15,136 bases of DNA from Desulfuromonas sp. SDB (GTDB lineage Bacteria; SDB-A), in NCBI GenBank assembly GCA_001412365.1, contig LKUE01000395.1, positions 1 through 15,136 of the forward strand, read 5' to 3'. Within the stretch, counting starts at the first letter, position 1, and each line of letters starts with the position of its first letter. The translations under genes and the position numbers were made by a program. Positions 1,690-9,689 of this stretch are shown piece by piece. The notes beneath the pieces are model-generated. The model ran no database searches, was not told where the DNA came from, and saw only the letters and a list, made by a program, of their open reading frames with translations.

Positions 1690-3666
1690 ATGGACAATGA
1701 TAACAATCATTTTAACAATATTTATGTGCAAACCAAAAAGCTGGTCGGTTATAAAACCATTCAGCAGTGCACTCCTTTAGATTATAAAAATTTAGGATTT
1801 AAATCGGGATTGGAAGTTCATCAACAGCTGTACACTGATAAGAAGCTTTTCTGCCGTTGTCCGGCGGGTATGTATTTTCCCGGAGAAGATTATGATGCTG
1901 AAGTAATCCGGCACATGAGACCGACTTTAAGTGAGTTGGGTGAATACGACGGCACTGCGTTAATGGAATTTAAAACAAAAAAAAACATCACTTACCGAAT
2001 AAAAAATCCGACTACCTGTACTTATGAAATTGACGACACTCCCCCCTTCCCCATCAACCAGCAGGCATTGGATATTGCTTTAGAAGTAGCTCTCCTGTTA
2101 AAAACCAATGTGGTGGGAGAATTACATATCACCCGCAAACAGTATTTAGACGGCAGCATACCTACTGGATTTCAAAGAACTGCCATTGTAGGCATAGAAG
2201 GGGAAATCCCCTTAGCTGAAAAAAAAGTCAGGATTATTCAGCTGAGTTTAGAAGAAGACGCCTGCAGAGAAGTTTCAGATTTCAGGCATCAGAGAATTTA
2301 CACTACGGACAGATTGGGAATGCCCCTTATAGAAACAGTTACTTATCCTGATTTACTCACTCCCCAGGAAGTAGTGGAAGCAGGTAATTACATCAGGTTT
2401 ATGAACAGAAGCACTAATAAAGTTAGAACTGGTATTGGAGCAACCCGGCAAGATGTTAATGTAAGTATCCGCGGAGGAACCAGGGTTGAAATCAAAGGGG
2501 TAGCTCATATTAAGTGGTTTGCTGAACTGGTGCATAACGAAGCTTTCCGGCAAAAATCGCTGCTGCACATAAGTTCCCAGTTAAAACAACGGATTAAAGA
2601 TATAAAAAAGTGGGATTTAACTTATCAACTAATTGATCCGAGCTTAATTAATCCTCTCCCTCCCTCCCTTAAATACTATGCTGATTCTGAAATAAAATGG
2701 GTGGCGGTAAATCTTCCTCATTTCCAGGATATTCTTGCCCATTTCACACAGCCCGGTCAGGTATTCGGTGATGAACTCAGGGGAAGGTTAAAAGTTATCG
2801 CCTGTCTGGAATTAGAGAATTTAATCCACTCCCAAGATCGAAATGAATTGTTAGCTACGGTGGATTTCAGCAAAATTCGCCAACTTTTAAAGTCCAAATC
2901 CCTGGATGCTCAACTTCTCTTTTGGTGTCCTTCCCAGGATTTAAGCACTGCCGTGGAAACCATCAGGGAAAGATGTATGCTGGCATTTCACGGAGTGCCC
3001 AACGAAACCAGAAAAGCACTTGCCGATGGAACTACTGTTTTCGAAAGAGTATTGCCTGGTCCGGACCGGATGTATCCTGATACCGATTCCGCTCCCCTGC
3101 CTATTGATGAAGAACGGATCAACAAAGTTAAAAATAACCTGCCCCCCTCCATCCACTACCGATATGAACAATTAAATAAGTGGGAAATATCCCGGCATTA
3201 TTGGATTTATCTGCTCAGACATAATCTGGTCCCTATTATTGAAAAGATCATAGCTTTTACCAATTATTCCCCTAAATTTTTAGCCGGTTTTTTTGCCCAG
3301 GACCTAAAGCACTTGGAAGGCCGGAACTCAAGCAGTAATTTCGACTATATTCATCTTATCAGTTTGTTCAAATTTATCAGCAAACATAATCTTTCTCCGG
3401 AAATTGCCAAAATAATGTTGCCGGTAGTTTTCAATAATCCCAATATTGAATTGGAATCAGTGCTAACCATAATCGGATATCAAAAAAGGAATATCAGCGA
3501 TATCTTATCTTATATTCCCGATCTGAGGAAAAAATTCAAATCCATAGCTAAAAATAAAAATATTAACGCGGAGAGAAATTGGATCATGGGAAACCTTAAA
3601 TTGTTATCCATAGGCAACTATCCTCTGGATAAATTAAGTGAAGAAGTAAACCGAAGAGTTAAATGA
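1690..3666 (+). CDS. gatE: Glu-tRNA(Gln) amidotransferase subunit E (archaeal-type)
   Basis: GatE binds misacylated Glu-tRNA(Gln), phosphorylates the glutamyl group and amidates it with ammonia from GatD, giving Gln-tRNA(Gln) in the cytoplasm. From the ATG at 1690 the protein has 658 residues. The GatB/E cradle domain opens with Gly-Leu-Glu-Val-His-Gln-Gln-Leu (40-47; metal-site Glu42/His44 by analogy with GatB) and continues with LEEDA (about 187-191) and PLIE (about 212-215). A GAD insertion, shared with bacterial AspRS and diagnostic for GatE against GatB, lies at about 300-430. It is followed by the GatE hallmark GVPNETRKALADGT and a PGPDRMYPDTD stretch (about 435-466). The tail (about 500-658) is a YqeY-like tRNA-binding region, rather divergent near its IMGNLK motif. 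About 30 residues precede the usual N-terminus. An in-frame TTG at 1651 would add 13 residues but lies upstream of the TATAAT. It overlaps gatD by 4 nt. Confidence 0.93.
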   Translation: MDNDNNHFNNIYVQTKKLVGYKTIQQCTPLDYKNLGFKSGLEVHQQLYTDKKLFCRCPAGMYFPGEDYDAEVIRHMRPTLSELGEYDGTALMEFKTKKNITYRIKNPTTCTYEIDDTPPFPINQQALDIALEVALLLKTNVVGELHITRKQYLDGSIPTGFQRTAIVGIEGEIPLAEKKVRIIQLSLEEDACREVSDFRHQRIYTTDRLGMPLIETVTYPDLLTPQEVVEAGNYIRFMNRSTNKVRTGIGATRQDVNVSIRGGTRVEIKGVAHIKWFAELVHNEAFRQKSLLHISSQLKQRIKDIKKWDLTYQLIDPSLINPLPPSLKYYADSEIKWVAVNLPHFQDILAHFTQPGQVFGDELRGRLKVIACLELENLIHSQDRNELLATVDFSKIRQLLKSKSLDAQLLFWCPSQDLSTAVETIRERCMLAFHGVPNETRKALADGTTVFERVLPGPDRMYPDTDSAPLPIDEERINKVKNNLPPSIHYRYEQLNKWEISRHYWIYLLRHNLVPIIEKIIAFTNYSPKFLAGFFAQDLKHLEGRNSSSNFDYIHLISLFKFISKHNLSPEIAKIMLPVVFNNPNIELESVLTIIGYQKRNISDILSYIPDLRKKFKSIAKNKNINAERNWIMGNLKLLSIGNYPLDKLSEEVNRRVK

Positions 3667-5048
3667 TGAATGATATATTCAAAGGATACAAAGGGAAAGC
3701 TTTAGAAATATTGAAAAAGTACAATATCCGGGTATGGAGTGAAGCTACAATTAAAACCACTCGGGGAGATTTTAAGGGGATTGTATTACCCCGGTCTGAA
3801 AATGATGATGATCTTCATATTGTGCTTAAACTGGATAACGGTTATAACATCGGCATTGCTACCAATACTATAAAACAAATCAAAGAATTTGGGTATAAGG
3901 AAGCTCATTACAAGATACCGGAAAAAGAGTTTCCCACTTCTGAGGATAAACCTAACATAAAATTGTTTGGCACCGGAGGCACTATCGCTTCCAGACTGGA
4001 TTATCGCACCGGAGCAGTAATCCCTGCTTTTTCCCCGGGAGAACTCTACGGAGCCGTTCCGGAGTTGGCAGATATATGCAATTTAACCACAGAAAAATTA
4101 TTTGCAGTATTCAGTGAAAATATGGGACCTCACCAGTATAAAACATTAGCGGTAGCTATTGGAGAGGCAATTTCTCAAGGGATTGAGGGCATTGTCATTG
4201 GTCATGGCACTGACACCATGCATCATACCGCATCAGCATTGTCCTTCATGGTGCAAAACACCCCAGTACCTATAGTAATGGTTGGCTCCCAGAGATCGTC
4301 GGACCGACCTTCTTCTGATGCCGCATTAAACCTCATCCATGCAGTAAAAACTGCTTCTGAATCTGACATCGCCGAAGTTTTAGTTTGTATGTTTGGGCCT
4401 ACTTCTGATGAATACGGATTACTGCATCGGGGAACCAGGGTGAGGAAGATGCACTCATCTTACCGTTCTACCTTCCGCACCATTGGAGATATACCCCTAG
4501 CCATGGTGGATCGAAATAAAATTACTCCTCTTCAGCAAAATTACAATCATCGGAGAAAAGACACCCAGGTTAATATTTTGCCCTACTTTGAACAAAAAGT
4601 TTCATTGATTTATTACTATCCTAATATGCAGCCAGATATAATTGATTCATTGGTAGATAACGGTTACCGGGGCATAGTTATTGCGGGTACTGGTTTGGGA
4701 CATGTCAATAAACCCCTCTATCCTGCGATTAAAAGAGCCTGTCAGAAAAATGTAGCCATCTATATGACCGTCCAGACCTTATGGGGGTATACCCATATGT
4801 TTGTTTATGATACGGGCAGGGATCTTATGTCCAACGGGGTGATTCCCGCAGACAATATGTTGCCGGAAGTGGCTTATATAAAGCTTGGCTGGGCTCTGGG
4901 ACAAACTGAAGATTTAGATGAGGTTAAAAAAATTATGCTGACTCCGGTAATTGATGAAATAACTGAAAGAGAACCTTACAACGGTTATTTAGTGTTTCAG
5001 GGAGGTGTCCCTGAAATTGAACAATTTCTCAAAAAAATTCATAAATAA
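3663..5048 (+). CDS. gatD: Glu-tRNA(Gln) amidotransferase subunit D (archaeal-type)
   Basis: GatD is the glutaminase/asparaginase partner of GatE. It hydrolyses Gln (or Asn) and channels the ammonia to GatE when tRNA is bound. The 461-residue protein has the GatD-specific N-terminal domain (about 1-95), which plain L-asparaginases lack, and then a type-I asparaginase fold. TGGTIAS (104-110) and HGTDTM (181-186) carry the catalytic threonines Thr107 and Thr183 plus Asp184; a Lys in RKMHS (about 262) completes the quartet. The spacing Thr107-Thr183 equals that of the Thr101-Thr177 pair I recall for the Methanothermobacter enzyme. The length is normal for GatD. The start overlaps the gatE stop (ATGA) with a second ATG immediately after, so 3663 and 3666 are both possible. 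Tight coupling to gatE supports a stoichiometric complex. Confidence 0.93.
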   Translation: MMNDIFKGYKGKALEILKKYNIRVWSEATIKTTRGDFKGIVLPRSENDDDLHIVLKLDNGYNIGIATNTIKQIKEFGYKEAHYKIPEKEFPTSEDKPNIKLFGTGGTIASRLDYRTGAVIPAFSPGELYGAVPELADICNLTTEKLFAVFSENMGPHQYKTLAVAIGEAISQGIEGIVIGHGTDTMHHTASALSFMVQNTPVPIVMVGSQRSSDRPSSDAALNLIHAVKTASESDIAEVLVCMFGPTSDEYGLLHRGTRVRKMHSSYRSTFRTIGDIPLAMVDRNKITPLQQNYNHRRKDTQVNILPYFEQKVSLIYYYPNMQPDIIDSLVDNGYRGIVIAGTGLGHVNKPLYPAIKRACQKNVAIYMTVQTLWGYTHMFVYDTGRDLMSNGVIPADNMLPEVAYIKLGWALGQTEDLDEVKKIMLTPVIDEITEREPYNGYLVFQGGVPEIEQFLKKIHK

Positions 5049-5060
5049 ACATTTAAGGTT

Positions 5061-6377
5061 ATGATCTATAATTACTATCAAATTATTGATCAAATTTACC
5101 ATAGTGAATGGGTTTCCAAACGATTAGCCAGGTTTAAGAATTTTCAATCTGTGCTTGAACAGATATGGCCTAAGGGGCATCCCACCAAAATTATCCAAGT
5201 TGCCGGAACTAATGGGAAAGGATCAACAGTAAAATTTTTAGAATCCGGATTTACCCTTACCGGTAGCACTGGTTCATTTACCAATCCCCATTTATTTGAC
5301 TTTAAAGAAAGATTTAGCATTAACGGGAAGAATCCGGAAGAAATTGAAATCATTGATATTTGGGAAAAAGAAATTTTACCCATAATTATCCGGCAAGCTG
5401 GTGAAAATACTGAACATATATTGTATTTCAGTGAAATCTGCATTTTAATTGCGCTTAAGTTATTTGAATATCATCAAGTTGAATGGGGAATTATGGAAAC
5501 CGGCTGCGGGGGGAGATATGAAAGATTAACCCAACTCCCTGCGGAAGGTGCAGTGGTTACCAATGTAGGAGAGGACCACCCTCTAAGTCTTGGAGAAAAA
5601 TCATGGCAAAGGGCATTAGATAAAGCAGGGATCTGCCGAAGGGAAAAACCCTTTTTTACCAGTGAAATGAATCCACTCCATCTGGATATTTTCAAAGAAA
5701 CCTGCACTAAATTCAACTCCCCTCTGATAAAACTGGATGCCGGAGATATCAATAACATTAAATCTTTTGTGGAGAAAAACCAATCTTCCCTGCACCCTGA
5801 TAATCTCCTGTTCAATGCCCCTCATCAGCTGAAAAATGCCGCCCTGAGTTTAAAAGTATTAACATATTTTTATCCTCATCTAGATAGATTAAAAGTTATA
5901 CATCAATTTATTCAACTGAAATATTTAGGAAGATTCACCAAATTTGACCAGCAAGTTTTTATTGATATTGCCCACAACCAGGATAAAATTCAGGCTTTGG
6001 TAACCACTATTAAAGCAACCTATCCTCACCGCCAAAAATACTTTTTAATAGGATTATCCAATAATCGTTCTGCTTTAAAAGTTTTACCTCCGGTGGTGGA
6101 AATTGCAGATAAAATAGTACTGACTTCTGCCAGTCACCGGGGAGTGGATCCCCAGATAATCAAACAAGAGCTATCCGCTTGGGAAAAGGGGTGTAAAGAC
6201 ATAGAAGTAATAACCGATCCCCGCAAAGCTTATCACTACCTTAAAAGTTGTCTTACTCCCCACAGTCTGCTGTTTGTAACTGGCTCCGCTTATATGATTG
6301 ATCAAGCGGTCAATCCGGATCAATTTCTCAGTTATCTCAATTATTCATACGGTTGGAGAAACAATCAGAAACAGTAA
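5061..6377 (+). CDS. folC: Folylpolyglutamate/dihydrofolate synthase-like Mur ligase
   Basis: FolC enzymes attach glutamate to dihydropteroate and to folates using ATP. The 438-residue length is typical. Seen in order: the P-loop GTNGKGS (49-55), a TNPHL...ERFSING segment (74-89) matching the SPHL...ERI.ING block, METGCGGR (145-152), TNVGEDH..LG (167-178), and DKAGI (187-191) with Lys188 at the position usually carbamylated. The C-terminal ligase domain begins at about 290 with GRF. Some motifs depart from the usual form: DIAHNQ (302-307) in place of DGAHNP, and Glu-Arg-Leu-Thr after GGRY where DATN is expected. It may therefore be a divergent FolC or a relative with another substrate. It lies 12 nt after gatD, apparently in the same transcript. 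The start has only a close AAGG. It converges on the transporter gene. Confidence 0.8.
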   Translation: MIYNYYQIIDQIYHSEWVSKRLARFKNFQSVLEQIWPKGHPTKIIQVAGTNGKGSTVKFLESGFTLTGSTGSFTNPHLFDFKERFSINGKNPEEIEIIDIWEKEILPIIIRQAGENTEHILYFSEICILIALKLFEYHQVEWGIMETGCGGRYERLTQLPAEGAVVTNVGEDHPLSLGEKSWQRALDKAGICRREKPFFTSEMNPLHLDIFKETCTKFNSPLIKLDAGDINNIKSFVEKNQSSLHPDNLLFNAPHQLKNAALSLKVLTYFYPHLDRLKVIHQFIQLKYLGRFTKFDQQVFIDIAHNQDKIQALVTTIKATYPHRQKYFLIGLSNNRSALKVLPPVVEIADKIVLTSASHRGVDPQIIKQELSAWEKGCKDIEVITDPRKAYHYLKSCLTPHSLLFVTGSAYMIDQAVNPDQFLSYLNYSYGWRNNQKQ

Positions 6378-6422
6378 ACAGGATTTGATTGTTAAATTAA
6401 TTTTACAGCAGGATTCAACCTG

Positions 6423-8009
6423 CTAAATTCGACTTATAATATTAGTGAAAATTATTACCATGATTAAGGCAAAAGGATATACAGAAGCGTAAGATACATA
6501 AGGAATATTTGATTCAGTTAATGAAGAAACTGAACCTAAACCCGGAGTACTGGTCATTGCCCCGGTTATAACCCCCAAAAATGACAAAAAATTAATCTTG
6601 AATATTATCCTTCCCCCAATTAATCCTGCTAACATGGGAATCAAAGTCACCACAATGCCCATTAAGAATATTTTATATCCGTATTGACTGATGGTAGCGG
6701 TAAGATGTTTTCCTGCTTGAGTTCCCACTGAAGACAAGAACAGAAGCAAACCAAATTTTCTCAGCAGCTGATTGGCTGAACCGGACATAGACCAGAGAAT
6801 TGGCCCGGTTTTTCCAATACTGCTTAATATAATTGCAGTTAATAAAACTCCGCCGGTAATTCCCAGTCCAAATTGAAATGATCCCCAGGGAATCTTCAGC
6901 TGCCCCAGCCATAATCCTAAGCTTATGCCTAAAAAAATAGAGATCAAATCAGTTTCCGATAGTTTCTTGTCATCATTGCCCAATAATTTCATAACTTCAT
7001 TTAAATTTTGTTCACTGCAGGCAATCATCAGTTTATCTCCAAACCTGATTTTACTGCCGGCAGTAGGAGTAATGTCAATTCCACTTCTTCTAATCCTGGT
7101 TACGGTGGCATTATACATTTTCATCAAATTTAACTGACCGATGGTTTTATTCACATTTTTCTTATTGGTTACCAATACCCATTGCACTATGTATTTTCCC
7201 TGAAATTCTATTTTTTGATCAGTTGGAGAACCAATCAGATACTCCACATTTTCCAGAGATTTCTGAGTACCTACTGCTTTTACCACATCACCTTTATGTA
7301 ATAGGGTATCGGCATTGGCAGTTGAAGCAATGTTTTGATGCAGAACTCTGGAAATATTTGCTCCGGTCATGGATAAAATTCTCAATGTACCGATGGTCTT
7401 GCCGTCAATATTGTCATTCTCCACCTTAAAATTTTTATCTAACAACTCAGGATGTTCATTTAGATCATCCTGGTGTAATTTCTTCTCTTCCCGGTTTAAG
7501 TTAATTTTAAGTATGCGGGGAGTCAGTTTTACAAATAATATCACTCCTACCACCCCAAAAGGATAGGCGCATCCATATCCTATGGAAGCCAATGGAGATT
7601 GTGTGGTGTCAATGGCAGCAGCTAATCCAGGAGTACTGGTCAACGCTCCGGTGAAAATTCCCACTGCCATATTGCTGTCCATGTTAAAAATTTTTGCCAG
7701 AATTACAGTCACCAATGCTCCGGTGAAAATTACCAAAAAAGAAATAATTAACATCTGTCTGCCGTATTTTTGAAATACACTGAAAAATCCCGGTCCAGCT
7801 TGAATACCCACAGTGAAAATAAATAAAATTAAACCTAAACTCTGAAAATCATGAGGAACTTGAAAATTAAAATGACCCAGGATTAAAGCCACAAAGATAA
7901 CTGCAGATAAATCTAGGCTAATCCCTTTTATTTTAATTTTCCCTAGAAGCAATCCTATAGTTATTATAGAAATTAATAGAAAGAAACCGTTATTGAATAT
8001 TGCCGACAA
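6423..8009 (-). CDS. AspT/YidE/YbjL-family transporter with two RCK_C domains
   Basis: This inner-membrane protein has the layout of the aspartate:alanine exchanger family: five or six hydrophobic helices (about 7-165), two cytoplasmic TrkA-C/RCK_C ligand-binding domains (about 195-262 and 270-346) and a second membrane half (about 353-526). The halves are internal duplicates: GALTSTPGL (121-129) matches GAMTSTPGL (483-491), VGIQAG matches VGTQAG, and each half carries a Tyr-Pro-Phe segment near its end. At 528 residues it is slightly shorter than E. coli YidE and YbjL (about 550-560). The substrate cannot be told from the sequence; dicarboxylates or amino acids are known for the family. The start is TTG, supported by AGGA at 8016-8019 with 6-nt spacing. 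It lies 15 nt after glnS and is probably co-transcribed with it. Confidence 0.9.
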   Translation of the reverse strand: MSAIFNNGFFLLISIITIGLLLGKIKIKGISLDLSAVIFVALILGHFNFQVPHDFQSLGLILFIFTVGIQAGPGFFSVFQKYGRQMLIISFLVIFTGALVTVILAKIFNMDSNMAVGIFTGALTSTPGLAAAIDTTQSPLASIGYGCAYPFGVVGVILFVKLTPRILKINLNREEKKLHQDDLNEHPELLDKNFKVENDNIDGKTIGTLRILSMTGANISRVLHQNIASTANADTLLHKGDVVKAVGTQKSLENVEYLIGSPTDQKIEFQGKYIVQWVLVTNKKNVNKTIGQLNLMKMYNATVTRIRRSGIDITPTAGSKIRFGDKLMIACSEQNLNEVMKLLGNDDKKLSETDLISIFLGISLGLWLGQLKIPWGSFQFGLGITGGVLLTAIILSSIGKTGPILWSMSGSANQLLRKFGLLLFLSSVGTQAGKHLTATISQYGYKIFLMGIVVTLIPMLAGLIGGRIIFKINFLSFLGVITGAMTSTPGLGSVSSLTESNIPYVSYASVYPFALIMVIIFTNIISRI

Positions 8010-8015
8010 AAAATA

Positions 8016-8019
8016 TCCT
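8016..8019 (-). promoter_or_regulatory. Ribosome-binding site fixing a TTG start
   Basis: On the minus strand AGGA lies 6 nt upstream of the TTG at 8009-8007, inside the 15-nt gap after the glnS stop codon. The first in-frame ATG would remove most of the membrane half that contains the duplicated motif, so TTG is the credible start. Confidence 0.6.
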
Positions 8020-8024
8020 AATTA

Positions 8025-9689
8025 TTATTTGTTTTTAATTTTCAGCCATGTATCCTTAAGAGAAACAATTTTGTTAAAGATCAGCTTGTCCGGACTGGAA
8101 TCATAGTCAACACAGAAATAACCTTTCCTTAAAAATTGATATCTTTCTCCCCTGTTACTACTGCTTAAACTTGGCTCAACTTTACAGTTTTTTAGTATCT
8201 CCAGGCTATTCTCATTTACATCATCAAGAATATTGCCAGTATTTTTGCCGGGATGGGCAGTTTTAAACAGCCAGTTGTAAACTCTAATCTCAGCATTGAC
8301 CCCATGTTCAACAGAAACCCAATGCAGGGTTCCTTTAACTTTTCGGTTATCTGCAGTGGTTCCACCCTTGCTGGCGGGGTCATAAGTACATATTAATTCA
8401 ACAATCTGCCCGGAATCAGGATCTTTTACTACCTGTTGGCAGGTAATGTAATAGGCATGTTTCAGACGGACTTCCCTGCCCGGGGATAACCGAAAATATT
8501 TTCGGGGAGGATCCTGTTTAAAATCTTCCCGTTCGATGTACAACTCTCTGCTAAATGGAATTTCTCGGGTTCCGCAATTTAAATCTTCCGGATTGTTGAC
8601 TGCTTCCATCATTTCAACTTTTCCCTGAGGATAATTATCAATAATCACCTTAACCGGATTTAAAACCGCCATTACTCTAGGTGCAGTTAAATTCAGCTCC
8701 TCTCTCAGACTATGCTCCAGTAAGGCATAGTCAACCACACTGTCCCGTTTGGCTACTCCGATTCTCTTGCAAAAAGCATTTATGGATGAGGAAGTGAAAC
8801 CTCTCCTCCTCAATCCGGAAATTGTGGGCATCCGGGGATCATCCCAGCCATTTACATATTTTTTTTCCACCAGTTCTCTGAGTTTCCTCTTACTCAGTAC
8901 GGTATAAGTTAAATTCAGCCGGGCAAATTCTATTTGTCGGGAAGGAAAAATTTCCAATTGCTCAATAAACCAGTTGTACAGCGGACGGTGATCTTCAAAT
9001 TGCAAATCACAAAGGGAATGAGAAATCCTCTCAATGGAATCAGATTGTCCGTGGGTAAAATCATAAGTTGGATAAATGCACCATTTATCCCCGGTACGAG
9101 GATGTTTTTCAGTTAATATTCTATACATTACCGGATCCCTCATGTTGATATTAGGGGAAGACATATCAATCTTTGCCCTTAATACTTTTGATCCATCGGG
9201 ATAATTGCCCTTTTTCATTTGTTCAAACAATTCCAGATTTTCATCCACGGTTCGGTCCCGGTAAGGGCTGTTTTTGCCAGGTTCAGTTAAACTGCCTCGA
9301 TATTCACGGATTTGCTCTGCACTCAGATCACAAACATAAGCTTTCCCTTTTTTAATAAGTATCAATGCAAACTGATAAAGCTGATCAAAGTAATCAGAGG
9401 CAAAAAACAAATTGTTTCCCCAATCAGCTCCCAACCAGGCTACATCCCGTTTAATTGCCTCAATGTACTCAATTTCTTCTTTAATGGGATTGGTGTCATC
9501 AAATCTTAAATTAAACTGTCCACTGTATTTTTCCGCGATCCCGAAATTCAGACATATTGATTTTGCATGTCCAATATGCAGATAACCATTTGGTTCAGGA
9601 GGAAAACGGGTAATAATTTTCTGATATGTTTTATTTTCTAAATCCTGATCAATGATATCGGTAATGAAATTTTTATTATTACTTTCCAT
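8025..9689 (-). CDS. glnS: Glutaminyl-tRNA synthetase
   Basis: GlnRS ligates glutamine directly to tRNA(Gln). The protein has 554 residues, the same length I recall for E. coli GlnRS, and resembles it throughout. Class-I signatures are [12 protein letters not shown] (30-41, HIGH at 38-41) and VLSKR (264-268, the KMSKS loop). Residues that separate GlnRS from GluRS are kept: Asp64/Asp65 in RFDDTNP, Tyr209 in TYDF, and Cys227 in HSLC, the position at which GluRS has Arg. The two-part C-terminal anticodon-binding beta-barrel region (about 340-550) is complete. The start is set by GGGGAG at 9695-9700, 5 nt from ATG, downstream of a clear promoter. The gene leads a two-gene operon with the AspT-like transporter. 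It is close to gatDE, which makes the same product by another route. Confidence 0.97.

Follow-up and report, generated by a model that had tools for sequence, protein, structure and literature searches.

The window analysed here, a 15,136-nucleotide stretch of contig LKUE01000395.1 from the bacterium Desulfuromonas sp. SDB, carries gatE, gatD, folC, a transporter gene and glnS in that order. Its features, in window coordinates, are as follows:

153-1526, divergent from gatE: gene for an outer-membrane-like protein (omp)
1690-3666, + strand: gatE, 658 aa from its ATG, for the predicted kinase/amidating and tRNA-binding subunit of Glu-tRNA(Gln) amidotransferase
3663-5048, + strand: gatD, 461 aa, for the predicted asparaginase-like, ammonia-releasing subunit; its start overlaps the gatE stop
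5061-6377, + strand: folC-like gene, above the TIGR01499 cut-off and outside the Gln-tRNA pathway
6423-8009, - strand: AspT/YidE-type transporter gene (TIGR01625)
8025-9689, - strand: glnS, glutaminyl-tRNA synthetase, 554 aa, above the TIGR00440 and NF011291 cut-offs
10-14.5 kb: ggdef, yacP, aim24 and ygiQ genes

The omp product has no Pfam or NCBIfam match and is kept beside gatE across the family at about 40% identity. An Rfam search of the window gave no matches.

The GatE, GatD and GlnRS proteins

By sequence, GatE and GatD belong to the GatDE family, and the presence of GlnRS concerns the host and not the enzyme as such. GatE scores above both of its equivalog cut-offs (461.8 against 456 bits for NF003107 and 379.5 against 319.6 bits for TIGR00134), as does GatD for both NCBIfam equivalogs (about 515 bits against cut-offs of 310-324). 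GatD is made up of a GatD_N domain plus asparaginase N and C domains, and its T107, T183, D184 and K262, within the motifs GTGGTIAS, GHGTDT and VRKMH, are shared with the GatD proteins of Pyrococcus abyssi and Methanothermobacter thermautotrophicus. In GatE, H44, E188 and E215, which we take to be metal ligands, align with H15, E157 and E184 of the M. thermautotrophicus protein and are the same in every sequence of the bacterial set.

An AlphaFold model of GatE, built with 29 bacterial sequences as input (mean pLDDT 77.8), found its best match in 2d6f_D, the GatE chain of the archaeal GatDE-tRNA(Gln) complex (Z 27.2, rmsd 4.7, 487 residues), while residues 305-435 matched a bacterial AspRS insertion domain. 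GatE gave no hit to the Pfam models for the tail and GAD domains, yet a phmmer alignment to 1zq1_C covers residues 8-606 and the predicted structure stays helical up to the C-terminus. On this modelling, GatE keeps every domain of archaeal GatE, including the AspRS-like insertion and the helical tail. The comparison was read for domain content and not for function, and pLDDT is low at the most conserved loops, so that little can be read from the model about the active site.

The likeness to archaeal GatDE (P. abyssi, 1ZQ1; M. thermautotrophicus, 2D6F) thus extends to the same two subunits, domain order, catalytic residues and GatE fold, with alignment over the full length. The differences lie in the bacterial host with its GlnRS (the archaea lack one), the tight gatE-gatD pairing and a set of residues fixed only in bacteria; identity to the archaeal proteins is about 33% for GatE and 47% for GatD. 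The MurT/GatD enzyme of Gram-positive bacteria shares the name alone, being a peptidoglycan amidotransferase with a different GatD (PMC6085368).

GlnRS scores 753 bits against the TIGR00440 cut-off of 426, and its class Ic catalytic domain and two anticodon-binding domains are likewise above curated cut-offs. When aligned to bacterial GlnRS structures, that of E. coli among them, the sequence shows HIGH, a VLSKR loop and Cys227, the counterpart of E. coli Cys229. The protein resembles the E. coli and Deinococcus radiodurans enzymes over its whole length, in HIGH, the SKR loop, the Cys229 equivalent and both anticodon-binding domains; it has no YqeY-type C-terminal fusion and differs from them in nothing notable. 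The equivalog scores and the residues aligned to known proteins bear out the initial annotation, which had described gatE, gatD and glnS as full length with intact catalytic residues.

Genomic setting and the rest of the Gln-tRNA machinery

The assembly is MAG-like, with 433 contigs and a contamination estimate of 3.9%, and this gives some ground for suspecting that the contig is chimeric or that gatED is a recent import in decay. Such an explanation is scarcely credible, given that gene order is kept on both flanks. Three independently assembled genomes of the same family (G051, G052 and G053) show the order omp-gatE-gatD-folC up to the limits of their contigs, and folC adjoins gatED in all four genomes examined from the phylum. 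In G051 and G052, folC is followed by ggdef, yacP, aim24 and ygiQ, just as at 10-14.5 kb of the window; the sole difference is the presence of transporter-glnS-smr between folC and ggdef in the window, the AspT/YidE-type transporter being missing from that position in the related loci L261 and L263. The reading frames are open, the catalytic residues are invariant across many genomes, the G+C of gatED (0.40-0.41) is close to that of neighbouring genes, and the GatD groups with those of its relatives. The synteny thereby disposes of the possibility, raised with the initial annotation, that archaeal and bacterial reads were joined between folC and the transporter. Since it is conserved on both sides, gatED is resident in the lineage.

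The description of GatDE and GlnRS as lying side by side was only partly upheld. The genes do share a window, but folC and the AspT/YidE-type transporter gene stand between them, and in the relative G052 glnS-smr lies on a separate contig from gatED. Among 81 loci compared, glnS is close to gatED only in the window and at one Zixibacteria locus. The gatE-gatD pair travels alone, and the nearness to glnS is therefore merely a local rearrangement that carries no weight as evidence.

The initial annotation had also proposed surveying the genome for gltX, gatCAB, asnS and tRNA-Gln genes, and this survey was run. The genome encodes a single bacterial-type GluRS (TIGR00464, 543 bits), a single GlnRS, an AsnRS above cut-off and a bacterial-type AspRS, and a glutamine synthetase match occurs at a contig end. 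GatB, and hence GatCAB, was not found in this genome by a search whose control set gave matches in 12 of 14 genomes, the exceptions being E. coli and Bacteroides; nor was GatB found in the three relatives. Both routes to Gln-tRNA(Gln), as far as the GatDE and GlnRS genes go, are thus encoded in one bacterium as first supposed, an arrangement that is unusual against the literature.

Two tRNA-Gln genes are present, with UUG and CUG anticodons. Both tRNAs have U1-A72, G2-C71, G3-C70, G10 and G73, which is the acceptor-stem and D-arm identity set of bacterial GlnRS, and amidotransferases also depend on U1-A72 (PMC9976931); position 37 is G and not A. Archaeal tRNA-Gln, in contrast, has A1-U72 and A73 (PMC9499178). 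Elsewhere in the genome, tRNA-Glu(CTC) (L121:125-196) has a G1-U72 wobble as its first pair, tRNA-Glu(TTC) has G1-C72, and a tRNA-Sec gene is found (L125:137-230).

Arg358 has been described as a residue of discriminating GluRS (PMC3927822), and the GluRS of this genome has it. As a marker of specificity, Arg358 was nonetheless discarded when its control failed: GatCAB-bearing genomes that lack GlnRS, whose GluRS must be non-discriminating, carry it too. Two GluRS-like genes occur in some of the genomes with GatDE (L208/L209 in G047, L215/L216 in G010 and L210/L211 in G025), with Gly or Tyr at the Arg358 position in one copy each of G047 and G010.

GatDE across bacterial phyla

A GatD scan with one genome per species gave 164 stretches, and the 80 kept were all bacterial records, mainly from Zixibacteria, Cloacimonadota, Aminicenantes and Bacteroidales. 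The GatD studied here is 74-83% identical to those of Zixibacteria, Cloacimonadota, Aminicenantes and Bacteroidota. GatD-bearing genomes have GatE above cut-off in 45 of 50 cases and GlnRS above cut-off in 47 of 50; about 11 of the 50 also have GatB. The archaeal pattern, in which GatDE occurs where GlnRS is absent, was not seen in this genome or in those 47. The pairing of GatDE with GlnRS recurs over several bacterial phyla and is no fluke. Glutamine synthetase was found in 49 of 51 GatD-bearing genomes; GatDE is therefore not a glutamine supply, and glutamine auxotrophy was rejected. A nutrient route by tRNA-dependent amide synthesis of the Deinococcus kind would go with the lack of the free amino-acid amide synthetase, which is not the pattern seen.

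Within the phylum of the window, all four genomes examined have GatE and none has GatB. GlnRS was found in Desulfuromonas sp. SDB and G052 and not in G051 or G053, absences that likely reflect assembly gaps because G053 also shows no GluRS. Among 98 Zixibacteria genomes, 65 have both GatE and GlnRS, 3 GatE only, 15 GlnRS only and 15 neither. The association appears strong by Fisher's test (p 4e-7) but is not significant after correction for kinship, independent pairs on the GluRS tree being about 2 in the same direction, 0 opposite and 5 without difference. One of the 3 Zixibacteria genomes with GatE only, G126 (L237, L255), has GatDE with neither GlnRS nor GatB detected, in a possibly incomplete assembly; it may rely on GatDE alone, as would be expected if bacterial GatDE is able to amidate Glu-tRNA(Gln). 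In G113 and G114 (L230, L231) no GatE, GatB or GlnRS was found, leaving Gln-tRNA(Gln) with no visible route, and these assemblies are probably incomplete. G031 has two full-length GlnRS genes (C773, C339).

Where a locus holds the pair (72 cases), gatE precedes gatD in the same orientation, directly so in nearly all. No other conserved neighbour was found beside gatED among the 81 loci, and the idea that adjoining genes might hint at an operon or pathway was given up for that reason. A 1172-aa frame in G135 that resembled a GatE-GatD fusion proved to be merely an upstream open frame. The order is gatD-gatE in G126 and G128. A second bacterial group of GatE occurs in Zixibacteria (L237-L246, L251); its members score closer to the archaeal model (449-514 bits), and most have no gatD next to them. 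At L285 and L286 (G135 and G030), gltX, glnS, gatE and gatD all fall inside about 11 kb, with glnS and gatE divergent. In G025 and in several members of the Zixibacteria set (L211, L222, L225, L229), a tRNA-Gln(CTG) gene adjoins gltX; in two Bacteroidales genomes (L169, L178) it adjoins glnS, with position 73 apparently A and not G.

The GatD tree follows phyla largely (6 changes, against a least possible 5) and places the lineage studied here in one group (support 88), with archaea, represented by two sequences, on a very long branch. Median identities in the main bacterial group are 77% for GatD, 66% for GlnRS, 56% for GatE and 38% for GluRS. In the one archaeal pair compared, GatD and GatE are both at 56%. 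Fixed in the main bacterial group yet different from both archaea are 32 columns of GatD and 32 of GatE, including TVQT in place of TSQC in the GatD C-terminal domain. The high GatD identity might suggest recent transfer, which was rejected because the tree largely follows phyla and because GatE (57-58%) is below GlnRS (66%) in the same genomes; GatD is simply slow. No carriage of GatDE by phage, plasmid or virus was found. A recent gain of one route, offered earlier as an explanation, accordingly lacks support, given a gatE-gatD pair present with kept synteny in all four genomes of the phylum and a bacterial GatD that forms one large group largely by phyla. The best reading is that this GatDE is a bacterial branch, long resident in several phyla that also use GlnRS.

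Possible roles of GatDE beside GlnRS

We favour a reading in which bacterial GatDE would amidate Glu-tRNA(Gln), correcting or supplementing mischarging by GluRS while GlnRS supplies the bulk, and we give it an even chance of being right. GlnRS would make most Gln-tRNA(Gln), and the single bacterial-type GluRS would glutamylate a fraction of tRNA(Gln), perhaps with a preference for the CUG isoacceptor. GatE would then phosphorylate the tRNA-bound glutamate with ATP and GatD would free ammonia from glutamine or asparagine, giving Gln-tRNA(Gln), so that misacylated tRNA(Gln) could be repaired or GlnRS supplemented when free glutamine is short. Consistent with this are two full-length subunits with active sites invariant across bacteria, the archaeal GatE/GatB fold with its AspRS-like insertion in the GatE model, a genome with one GluRS, one GlnRS, AsnRS and no GatB, tRNA-Gln genes whose GlnRS-type elements include the U1-A72 pair, the wide occurrence of GlnRS and glutamine synthetase in GatD-bearing genomes, and G126. 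A precedent for the substrate is Acidithiobacillus ferrooxidans GluRS1, which charges tRNA-Gln(CUG) and not UUG (PMC3927822).

E. coli has GlnRS and the two tRNA-Gln isoacceptors yet does without an amidotransferase, and repair is therefore not obligatory. Moreover, GatE is missing from 15 of the 80 GlnRS-bearing Zixibacteria genomes, and the GatB found in about 11 of 50 GatDE genomes could do the same job. The weak point of the amidation model is the source of its Glu-tRNA(Gln) substrate. In a rival reading, a non-discriminating GluRS and GatDE would make a major share of Gln-tRNA(Gln) and GlnRS the rest, with glutamine supply switching between them. The Arg358 position is alike in the GluRS of GlnRS-less, GatCAB-bearing and of GlnRS-bearing Zixibacteria, and tRNA-Gln keeps U1-A72; these parallel routes are still rather doubtful, as the GluRSs characterised from bacteria that have GlnRS discriminate against tRNA(Gln) (PMC3927822) and the genome has no second GluRS. 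Distinctly improbable is a division of isoacceptors, with UUG charged by GlnRS and CUG by GluRS plus GatDE. Both isoacceptors are present, the CUG gene adjoins gltX in some Zixibacteria and A. ferrooxidans GluRS1 again offers a precedent, but the two tRNAs share their acceptor-stem identity elements, genomes without GlnRS (G059 and G060) likewise have tRNA-Gln(CUG) next to gltX, and in the two Bacteroidales genomes the CUG gene is beside glnS instead.

GatDE could also have been repurposed for another aminoacyl-tRNA or another carboxyl substrate, possibly with a different amide donor for GatD. This would suit the absence of a clear need for Glu-tRNA(Gln) amidation alongside GlnRS, the bacterial-fixed columns and the excess of GatD over GatE conservation in bacteria, a contrast that rests on only one archaeal pair. 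It is unlikely, however, as the tRNA-binding domains and GatE active site are retained and no conserved gatED neighbour suggests another pathway. Returning to amidation, we tentatively propose that widespread bacterial GatDE might serve as dedicated quality control, editing mischarged Glu-tRNA(Gln) by amidation where GlnRS is the normal route, or else act on a new substrate, a possibility that we place a little below an even chance. We know of no tRNA-dependent amidotransferase for which either role has been reported.

GlnRS-bearing Deinococcus, Thermus and Bdellovibrio are already known to retain an amidotransferase, GatCAB, next to direct synthetases. There, it is kept for tRNA-dependent Asn synthesis (PMC4206432), whereas the GatDE considered here is glutamine-specific and glutamine synthetase is present. 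GatDE itself has been described as archaeal (reviewed in PMC9499178 and PMC8007984), and reviews from 2014-2022 either confine it to archaea or know of no bacterium with both Gln-tRNA routes. Automatic annotation very likely already labels bacterial gatE and gatD genes; no paper on bacterial GatDE was found in a literature search that covered only a minority of subscription journals and preprints.

It has been argued that the common ancestor possessed GatDE and that bacteria lost it; the recurrence of GatDE with GlnRS in several bacterial phyla, and the very slow evolution of GatD there, are relevant to that view. The same co-residence is relevant to why the two enzymes were taken to exclude each other, and it makes possible a direct test of amidotransferase function in a cell that has GlnRS.
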